From the NCBI GenBank assembly GCA_003175985.1, contig PSRJ01000129.1:1-64000 (forward strand): a stretch of 64,000 nt of DNA. The letters run 5' to 3'. Shown here one piece after another: positions 38,860-42,197 of the stretch (position 1 is the stretch's first letter; the number at the start of each line of letters is the position of its first letter). The notes beneath the pieces were generated by a model, which was not told the DNA's origin, did no database searches, and saw nothing but the letters and a program-made list of their open reading frames with translations. The stretch comes from Terriglobia bacterium (GTDB lineage: Bacteria > Acidobacteriota > Terriglobia > Bryobacterales > Bryobacteraceae). The translations under genes and the position numbers were made by a program.

Positions 38860-40221
38860 TCATACAAGAGCGAACTGCTCTTCGGTGGGTTCCGCTCAAC
38901 AGTACCAGGGCTCAGTCAGATAAGGAATAGTGGCACGGGACGGGCGCGGATCGCCCTCCGGGAACGGGCCGGCTTCAGCAAGCTGCAAGATCAGGCGGAA
39001 CAGTTCCTGGCGGGTGCGGCGGCCCTCCTCGCGCTTGAGCAATTCCTGAATCGAGGCGTGCAGAATGTCGAGGCCGCTCTCGCGGCTACGCCAGGGATAA
39101 CACAGCGCATGCGCATCAAACGGTTCCACGAGGGCGCGGATCTCGGGCTGTTCCAACAGTAAAGAGCCTTCGGGAATCAACAGACGGATCGCGAGTTGGA
39201 TGGGCGCCACCTGATCCGCGAGGTCAAGTTCCACGAGATCTCGCAGAAAGCGTTGGTACGATTCGCGCGTGGTCCATGGTGTGAATGGTATGAACGTAGG
39301 CGCCAGGGGCAGGCCGGCCGCGCGGCTGAGCGACAACGCCTCGAGAAAATCGGCGCGCGTGTGGCCTTTGGAGAGCTTCTCGAGCACAGCGTCGTCCAAA
39401 GACTCTACCGCACTGGTCACAAACAGGCAGCCCGTCGCCTTGAGCGCGGGGAGCAATTCGCGGTGCTTGAGCATGTGCTCGATCTTGATCGTCACATCGT
39501 AGGTGAGCGTGGGCCATTCGCAGTGCAAGCTCTCGATGACCTTCAGAGCGTGCCCCGGGCCATTGAAGAAATCGGGGTCTCCGAAGGTGACGTGCTGCGC
39601 GCCCAAGGCGATCTGGCGGCGTATGTCTTCGAGAACGATTTCCCGCTGCACGATGCGGAACGAACCGCGATAGACCGGAACGACGGGGCAATGGCGGCAC
39701 CAATGCTTGCAGCCGCGGCTTGCCTCTGTGTATCCGACACGTTTGGTATCGCCGTTCACTACCAGTTGGGCATAGCTGGCAAGCGGCGGCAGTCCGGTGC
39801 GGTCGGGCACGCGGAACTGCTGCCGCCCGAGAGAGATCAGCGGCTGGGGCGCGGCCTCGCGCACCAGATCGGCAAGGGGTTTCTCAAACTCACCGCCGAT
39901 CACGGCGTTCACGCCGGCGCGGCACAACAGGTCTTGATTCAGCGGAGCATAGAGGCCGTATGCGCAGAGATACGCGGAGGGGTTGATCGACCGCACACGT
40001 TCCACCACACGCAGGATCAGGCGAGTGGCCGTATGCATCGGCAGAAAAAAGCCGATGAACTCCGCCTCGCTCGCAGCCTTCACCGGAAGGGGGCCTCGCG
40101 AAAGATCGGCTAGCACGACATCGTGGCCATCCTCTTTCAACCAGGCGGCCGGAGAAGCTAATCCAAAAGGCTGGCGTCCCAGTTCATAGGTGGAAATCAG
40201 GAGGACCCGCACTGATCCCAT
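38860..40221 (-). CDS. B12-binding radical SAM selenoprotein with CUAEP tail (UGA at 38896-38898 recoded)
   Basis: Read conventionally the protein ends ...YLTEPWYC at TGA 38898. Reading that TGA as selenocysteine continues C-U-A-E-P-T-E-E-Q-F-A-L-V to TGA 38862, giving 453 residues with Sec442. C-U/C-A-E-P is the tail motif of a known family, CUAEP/CCAEP-tail radical SAM (seleno)proteins, as I recall it. Seen: B12-binding fold at 1-125 (VRVLLISTYELGRQPFGL, VNAVIGGEFEKPLADL); radical SAM cluster Cys171-x3-Cys175-x2-Cys178 in SRGCKHWCRHCPVVP; GAQHVTFGDPDFFNGPG. Start ATG 40221, 46 bases from divergent nadA. A SECIS-like hairpin follows the TGA. Substrate unknown. Confidence 0.82.
38866..38882 (-). 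promoter_or_regulatory. Candidate bacterial SECIS hairpin
   Basis: On the minus-strand mRNA, AAGAGC-AGUUC-GCUCUU forms a perfect 6-base-pair stem with a 5-base loop whose second base is G. The loop begins 20 bases after the in-frame UGA. Bacterial SECIS elements require a stem with a G within the first two loop bases about 16-37 bases from UGA, so both conditions hold. It lies inside the extended coding tail. Confidence 0.72.
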
Positions 40222-40267
40222 TATGACGGGTTTGCTACACTGGTCTCGAACCCCACAATCTCCCCCA

Positions 40268-41197
40268 ATGCCAGCCGTAGCCAGTATCGCCGAAGAGATT
40301 CTCGATTTAAAGCAGGTGCGGAAAGCCATTATTCTCGCCCATCATTACCAGGAGCCGGAGATCCAGGAATTGGCGGACGTGGTGGGCGACAGCCTCGAGT
40401 TGGCCGGCAAAGCGCGCGAGGTAGACGGGAAGGTGATCGCATTTTGCGGCGTCTGGTTTATGGCGGAGACTGCCAAGGTTTTGAACCCGAGCCGCGTAGT
40501 GGTGGCGCCGGATCGGGAGGCCAGTTGCAGTCTGGTGGAAAGCTGTCCTGTGGAGCCGATTCGCGCGTTCCGGCGGCAGAATCCGGATCACGTGATCGTG
40601 AGTTACATTAACACCTCAATCGAGGTGAAGGCCGAGAGCGACATCCTATGCACGTCGCGGAATGCCGTGAATATAGTCAACTCAATACCGCCCGAAAAAC
40701 CGGTCCTGTTCCTTCCGGACCGGAACCTTGGGAATTACGTGCAGCGGCAGACCGGCCGGCAAAACATGCAGATCTGGCAGGGCACGTGTATGGTGCACGC
40801 TACCTTTCCGGCGCGGCGGGTGATCGAGGCCAAACTGGAGCATCCGGAAGCAATGGTAGTGGCCCACCCGGAGTGCCCGGAAACCGTTTTGGCTCTGGCC
40901 GATTTCGTGGGTTCCACTTCCGCCATCATCGAATGGTGCGCGGATAGTCCGGCATCGGAATTCATCGTGATGACGGAGAGCGGCGTCAATTACTCGCTGA
41001 AGCGAGTGGCGCCTTACAAACAGTTTTATTACGTGGCCAACGAGAACTGCAATTGCAGCGAGTGCCCGTACATGAAACTGAATACCCTGGAGAAGCTGCG
41101 TGAATCTCTGCTCACGCTCGAGCCGCGGGTAGAGGTAGCGCCCGAAATCGCCCGGCGCGCGCTGATTCCGCTGGAGCGTATGCTCGCGGTGAGATAA
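40268..41197 (+). CDS. nadA: Quinolinate synthase
   Basis: Condenses iminoaspartate with dihydroxyacetone phosphate to quinolinate for NAD synthesis, using a [4Fe-4S] cluster. Seen: 309 residues from ATG 40268. KAIILAHHYQEPEIQELADV, GDSLELAGKA, FCGVWFMAETAK, DREASCSLVESCP, PDRNLGNYVQRQTG, WQGTCMVHATFP and a late CNCSECPYMKLNTLEKL carrying the cluster cysteines. Upstream open frame is intergenic. Followed after 1 base by moaA. NadB and NadC are not in the window. Confidence 0.96.
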   Translation: MPAVASIAEEILDLKQVRKAIILAHHYQEPEIQELADVVGDSLELAGKAREVDGKVIAFCGVWFMAETAKVLNPSRVVVAPDREASCSLVESCPVEPIRAFRRQNPDHVIVSYINTSIEVKAESDILCTSRNAVNIVNSIPPEKPVLFLPDRNLGNYVQRQTGRQNMQIWQGTCMVHATFPARRVIEAKLEHPEAMVVAHPECPETVLALADFVGSTSAIIEWCADSPASEFIVMTESGVNYSLKRVAPYKQFYYVANENCNCSECPYMKLNTLEKLRESLLTLEPRVEVAPEIARRALIPLERMLAVR

Positions 41198-41198
41198 G

Positions 41199-42197
41199 AT
41201 GGCTGCCCTCCCATTGACCGATTCCTTTGGCCGCGTGCACGATAACCTCAGGGTCAGTGTCACCGACCGTTGTAATATCCGGTGCTTCTATTGCATGCCC
41301 GAAACGGATGTGCATTTCGTGGAGCGCCGCGAGATTCTGGATTTCGAAGAGATCGAACGCTTCGTCCGGATCGCCGTGGGGCTGGGCATTCGCAAGTTGC
41401 GGGTTACGGGCGGCGAACCGCTGGTGCGGCGCGATCTGCCAACACTGATTCAGCGGTTGTGCGCGATTCCCGGCATTCAGGATCTGGCGCTTACAACCAA
41501 TGGTGTGCTGCTGCCCAAGCTGGCGGAGCCACTCTATCGGGCGGGCTTGCGGCGCATCAACGTCCATCTGGACACCCTGGACCGGCAGCGGTTTTTGCAG
41601 ATCACGCGGCGGGACGAGATCGACAAGGTGCTGGAGGGTTTGGCGCTCTGCAGGCAACTCGGCTACTCCAAGATCAAGATCAATGCGGTGGCCGTAAAGA
41701 ATCTGGTGGAGCCGGACATCGTTCCTTTGGCGCGTTTCGCGCGCGAAAACGGCTTCGAGGTGCGGTACATCGAGTTCATGCCGCTGGACGCGCAGAGCCT
41801 GTGGGACCGTAGCAAGGTGCTGCTGGCGGACGACATTGTGGCAATGCTCAGCCGCGAGATCTCGCCCTTGGTCCCGGTGCCGGATCCCGACCCGCGCGCC
41901 CCTGCTTCTGAATATCAGTTTGCCGACGGCGTGGGACGGATCGGACTTATCGCTTCCGTCAGCCGTCCCTTCTGCCTCAACTGCAACCGGCTGCGTCTGA
42001 CTGCCGACGGCCACCTTCGCTATTGCCTGTTTGCGATCGAAGAAGACAATGTGAAAACATTGCTGCGCTCAGGCGCCCCGGACGATGAGATTGCCGCATT
42101 GATTCGCCGCAATGTGGCCGGCAAGTGGATCGGCCACGAGATCAATTCGACACGGTTTGTGGCGCCGCCGCGGCCAATGTATTCGATCGGCGGCTGA
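41199..42197 (+). CDS. moaA: GTP 3',8-cyclase MoaA
   Basis: Radical SAM enzyme of molybdenum-cofactor synthesis. Seen: 332 residues, N-terminal cluster VTDRCNIRCFYCMPET (Cys25, 29, 32), LRVTGGEPLVRRDLPTL, VHLDTLDRQRFLQITRRDEI, C-terminal cluster FCLNCNRLRLTADGHLRYC, and a C-terminal Gly-Gly. Complete. Starts right after nadA. A ModA-like protein is encoded about 2 kb downstream, but not in the same operon. Confidence 0.96.
   Translation: MAALPLTDSFGRVHDNLRVSVTDRCNIRCFYCMPETDVHFVERREILDFEEIERFVRIAVGLGIRKLRVTGGEPLVRRDLPTLIQRLCAIPGIQDLALTTNGVLLPKLAEPLYRAGLRRINVHLDTLDRQRFLQITRRDEIDKVLEGLALCRQLGYSKIKINAVAVKNLVEPDIVPLARFARENGFEVRYIEFMPLDAQSLWDRSKVLLADDIVAMLSREISPLVPVPDPDPRAPASEYQFADGVGRIGLIASVSRPFCLNCNRLRLTADGHLRYCLFAIEEDNVKTLLRSGAPDDEIAALIRRNVAGKWIGHEINSTRFVAPPRPMYSIGG

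Follow-up and report, generated by a model that had tools for sequence, protein, structure and literature searches.

Does the TGA at 38896..38898 on the minus strand end a radical SAM gene, or is it read as selenocysteine (Sec)? This is the question raised by the gene at 38860..40221 (minus strand) of the window, the whole 64-kb stretch of DNA analysed here, whose host is a soil bacterium. A preliminary description had proposed the second reading, with a conventional end at ...EPWYC and a read-through end of C-U-A-E-P-T-E-E-Q-F-A-L-V before another TGA. The sequence agrees with it in the frame, in both TGA codons and in the residues on either side of the first, and the comparisons reported here support the reading as Sec. 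Based on them, the gene very probably encodes a selenoprotein, having a Sec-UGA, a SECIS element and a product with a Cys-Sec end. Sequence comparison shows the family, the selection on the frame past the UGA, the hairpin, and the presence of SelB, SelD and tRNA-Sec in the genome.

Family membership and the C-terminal tail

The start codon at 40219-40221 fits the NF040546 profile and, with the terminal TGA at 38860-38862, gives a protein of 453 residues with Sec as residue 442; starting at the alternative upstream ATG (40327-40329) would lengthen the protein by 36 residues, all of them outside the family profile. The protein reads ...TEPWYC before the Sec-UGA, and the 11 residues beyond it, AEPTEEQFALV (38863..38895, minus strand), form a tail that ordinary gene calling misses. 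The read-through product scores 608.3 bits against NF040546 (cut-off 500), covering positions 1-467 of the 468 in the profile. This is the NCBIfam entry "CUAEP/CCAEP-tail radical SAM (seleno)protein", so that the family referred to in the preliminary description exists under that name. Also, the Pfam Radical_SAM domain is matched at 48.6 bits and B12-binding at 27.3 bits, the latter below its cut-off of 32.1. The protein shares with NF040546 the whole length, the CxxxCxxC motif for the radical SAM [4Fe-4S] cluster (CKHWCRHC, 39688..39711, minus strand), the C-U-A-E-P tail and the in-frame UGA with its SECIS, and nothing sets it apart. By profile, motif and tail, the gene is assigned as a further member of an already catalogued selenoprotein family.

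Of 396 genomes scanned in the phylum, 61 were above the NF040546 cut-off, most with exactly one in-frame TGA, and the GTDB contigs, also scanned, yielded 80 loci, the titles of which name Acidobacteria, Gemmatimonadota, Latescibacterota, Chloroflexi, Proteobacteria and actinomycetes, among others. The tail motif is found in 109 sequences, the window's included, as C-U-A-E-P in 63 and as C-C-A-E-P in 46. The UGA of the window gene has a Cys codon opposite it in 46 homologues and another UGA in 62, and its reading as Sec is also backed by the hairpin and the Sec machinery considered below. In the alignment of 45 homologues, the residues C, U/C, A, E and P are invariant together with the preceding E-P-W, and conservation of the residues after the TGA extends across phyla. 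Alignment A1 shows the three Cys of the cluster motif as invariant and, besides these and the tail pair, Cys264 (A1 numbering, one less than the count from ATG 40221). That Sec read-through gives the radical SAM enzyme a conserved 12-residue end is well supported.

The preliminary description had warned that standard gene callers would cut off the tail, and this is the case for a reference protein: the RefSeq protein of Thermomicrobium roseum (L163:6935-8371, NC_011961.1) is named for the CUAEP tail, and its CDS ends in WFC at the Sec UGA. Read past this UGA, the T. roseum sequence gives UAEPLEDPSGPV, with a five-pair hairpin. No paper on CUAEP or CCAEP proteins was found in the literature searched, and the NF040546 accession is absent from the main text of a review of prokaryotic selenoproteins published in 2026 (PMC13188914).

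The hairpin downstream of the UGA

A 6-bp hairpin (38866..38882, minus strand) follows the UGA, in which AAGAGC (38877-38882) pairs with GCTCTT (38866-38871) around the loop AGTTC (38872-38876), with the stem beginning 14 nt and the loop 20 nt after the UGA, exactly where it had been placed from the sequence. Agreement with the bacterial SECIS rules, which had also been proposed, holds as well, the second loop base being G, as it is in 61/61 Sec genes, and the pairs being kept by covariation. The hairpin alone has a folding energy of -7.4 kcal/mol (z -2.2), with 5 of 200 shuffles as good; since this single-sequence fold is only modestly unusual, the proof of the hairpin is comparative.

When the six pairs are counted at a fixed distance from the UGA, all of them are present in 51/61 Sec genes, whereas only 1/46 Cys genes has them, and at least five are present in 58/61 and 7/46, respectively, so that most of the Cys homologues have lost the hairpin. 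Across the 61 Sec homologues 96% of the cells are paired, against 34-62% when the partner is slid. Moreover, among 32 differing sequences, changes on both sides are observed in four of the six pairs; these double-sided changes amount to 42 cells, compared with 13.6 in shuffles (0/500 shuffles as high), and the pairing falls from 94% to 46-50% when the partner is shifted by one base. On this comparative evidence, the hairpin is assigned as a bacterial SECIS element. The peptides E-E-Q-x-A-L, E-G-Q-L-D-P and E-D-Q-F-G-P are those encoded by alternative stems, and the direction of cause would run from the RNA stem to the tail peptide.

An ordinary stop, leaving the tail untranslated and the protein ending in ...EPWYC, is what the usual annotation assumes, even for the T. 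roseum RefSeq protein (WFC, then UGA, then AEP), but it is highly improbable given that selection acts on both the tail residues and the hairpin in different phyla, that Cys homologues translate the tail, and that the hairpin is mostly lost where the codon is Cys.

Exchange between Sec and Cys

In a tree built without the tail (a quick tree, with SH-aLRT support only), 13 changes are required to explain the Sec/Cys label, and 7 or more of them fall on well supported branches. On average, 6.1 of 7 independent label-differing pairs show the hairpin tracking the UGA and 0.0 show the opposite. The aligned Cys homologues (CCAEP) suggested as a check in the preliminary description exist even within the genus of the window: the UGA form is found in G398 and in G399, the latter with the hairpin, and TGC takes the place of TGA in G396 and G397.

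Selenocysteine machinery of the genome

The presence of SelA, SelB, SelC and SelD in the genome had been predicted from the UGA. The prediction is borne out for SelB (366 bits), for SelD (363 bits) and for a tRNA-Sec with the UCA anticodon, whereas no SelA was found by profile or protein search of the assembly, which is 92% complete in 405 contigs. Either of two results would, according to the preliminary description, have refuted the reading, namely a genome without selB or selC and homologues that keep no residues after the TGA, and neither was observed. The frame of the SelD gene (L009, G000:C151:35826-36749) contains a UGA, at residue 11 of the matching segment, and SelD is probably itself a selenoprotein. 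The tRNA-Sec lies at a contig end (C185:1-75), so that its first bases are lost and the gene is incomplete in the assembly; its anticodon loop is CUUCAAA, and its 3' end resembles those of relatives.

The C185 tRNA is a weaker Rfam match than another tRNA on contig C268, the best match of this genome to the Rfam tRNA-Sec model (58.5 bits). The latter was rejected as selC because its anticodon is UAU and ARAGORN calls it tRNA-Ile. This tRNA (G000:C268:7828-7913; L006:1501-1586) is shaped like a tRNA-Sec, with a 9-bp acceptor stem, and passes the tRNA-Sec threshold of Rfam. It agrees with the allo-tRNA(UAU) type known from soil bacteria, Acidobacteria among them (PMC7609411), and annotation could mistake it for tRNA-Sec or tRNA-Ile.

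A comparison of genomes of the phylum shows SelB above its cut-off in 44/46 Sec-type genomes versus 5/10 Cys-type genomes (Fisher p 0.001), and SelA in 45/46 versus 5/10 (Fisher p 0.0004), the genomes in both cases being related and not independent. All 45 other Sec-type genomes of this comparison have SelA. Within the genus, SelB is found in 5/5 genomes and SelA in only 2/5: two of the four congeners searched, G397 and G399, likewise lack it, whereas it is present in G396, G398 and other members of the family. The pattern in G000, G397 and G399 could correspond to a loss of SelA or to a region that assembles badly. A position of selA in the gap beside selC was considered and rejected, since in two congeners the selA region is not near a tRNA-Sec. 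In two congeners this region is shared with EF-P-like and dehydrogenase E1-like genes (named from sequence), and nothing of it was found among the loci of the present genome that were examined.

The absence of SelA from this assembly and from the genomes of two congeners, together with the Cys form carried by the SelA-less G397, would fit a selenoprotein gene by descent in a strain that has lost selA and makes only the truncated product. However, SelB, the UGA-containing SelD gene, the UCA tRNA, an intact tail and an intact hairpin all persist, the assembly is neither complete nor contiguous (as given above), and G399, also lacking SelA, keeps the UGA form with its hairpin. This makes such a loss unlikely, and we infer that this strain does insert Sec. 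The hairpin 14-30 bases downstream would recruit SelB with its Sec-tRNA(UCA) to the ribosome at the UGA, and after the insertion of Sec 11 more residues would be translated up to the second UGA. The product would be a B12-domain-type radical SAM enzyme with a Cys-Sec pair in its C-terminal tail.

Predicted structure and nearest known systems

An AlphaFold model calculated with 45 homologues has a pLDDT of 93.5 and a pTM of 0.92. The linker before the tail falls to a pLDDT of 57, and the stretch ending in the C-U motif is back up to about 84, which suggests that the tail may dock on the enzyme. The best fold matches in the PDB are AprD4, OxsB, MgmA and TsrM, and the modelled fold is of the B12-domain radical SAM type, cobalamin binding being only predicted. 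The top match is the radical SAM diol dehydratase AprD4 (PDB code: 6fd2), with a TM score of 0.72 and 18% identity. AprD4 acts in an aminoglycoside pathway and is not known to have a Cys-Sec tail.

The nearest characterised family is ArsL (NF040542), the arsinothricin radical SAM protein with an RCCLKC tail, which has the same scaffold over about 390 residues. Nevertheless, the window protein scores 259 bits against NF040542, far under the cut-off of 450, its tail is CUAEP and lacks RCCLKC, and, in contrast to ArsL, its gene has no arsenic genes next door. An ArsL-type protein from Priestia is 34% identical to the window protein and also has a C-terminal tail, with a Cys-Cys pair like the Cys-Sec of the window, whereas the family-invariant Cys264 is Val in it. 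ArsL has been proposed to transfer the 3-amino-3-carboxypropyl group of SAM onto As(III) (PMC8552651). The Priestia locus, on a plasmid (L164:2330-7275, RCCLKC), contains an ATP-grasp gene, an ArsR-family regulator and an aquaporin, together with a carboxymuconolactone-decarboxylase-family protein ending in CCQ. Its ATP-grasp protein and that of the CUAEP-family loci are only distantly alike (22-30%).

Two roles for the tail are conceivable once Sec is inserted. In one of them the tail is non-catalytic and the Cys-Sec pair acts as a regulatory or protective redox switch. The low confidence of the linker is in line with this possibility, and a C-terminal Cys-Sec pair borne on a flexible linker is reminiscent of the mobile tail of thioredoxin reductase; against it, the tail motif and the E-P-W before it are invariant in 45 homologues, more strictly than most of the protein. 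A redox switch is thus possible but doubtful. The other role, a catalytic one, is put forward just as tentatively: the Cys-Sec tail might reach the active site by folding back and serve there as soft nucleophile or as redox or metal ligand, the reaction being ArsL-like and yielding a modified amino acid.

Gene neighbourhood and possible function

The neighbours in the window are nadA-moaA and a 2-oxoacid:ferredoxin oxidoreductase. The nadA and moaA genes (window 40190-42197) run divergently to the radical SAM gene, an arrangement also seen in several loci of Bryobacterales, the clade of the window. An ATP-grasp ligase gene is found nearby in 38/64 loci, nearly always adjacent; it encodes an ATP-grasp domain together with an L-amino-acid-ligase C-terminal domain, with a distant likeness to BacD and DdaF. 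No such neighbour is present within the 64-kb window. Among the actinomycete relatives, L119 has 4-HPPD-like and PaaK-like enzymes beside the gene, and L121 has a 2-ketoarginine-methyltransferase-like gene, an aminotransferase and an amino-acid-dioxygenase-like gene; these neighbours look like natural-product genes. The ligase and the natural-product-like neighbours point to modified amino acids, and in many relatives the adjacent L-amino-acid ligase might join the modified amino acid to another amino acid. A role in arsenic chemistry was considered from the neighbourhood and rejected, as the neighbour families most frequent at the 80 loci, inspected by eye, include no arsenic-like gene.

Finally, the covariation confirms a selenoprotein family that is still cut short in databases, even in the named reference of T. 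roseum. Moreover, the repeated switches between Sec and Cys, together with the ligase neighbour, make the function of the family testable.
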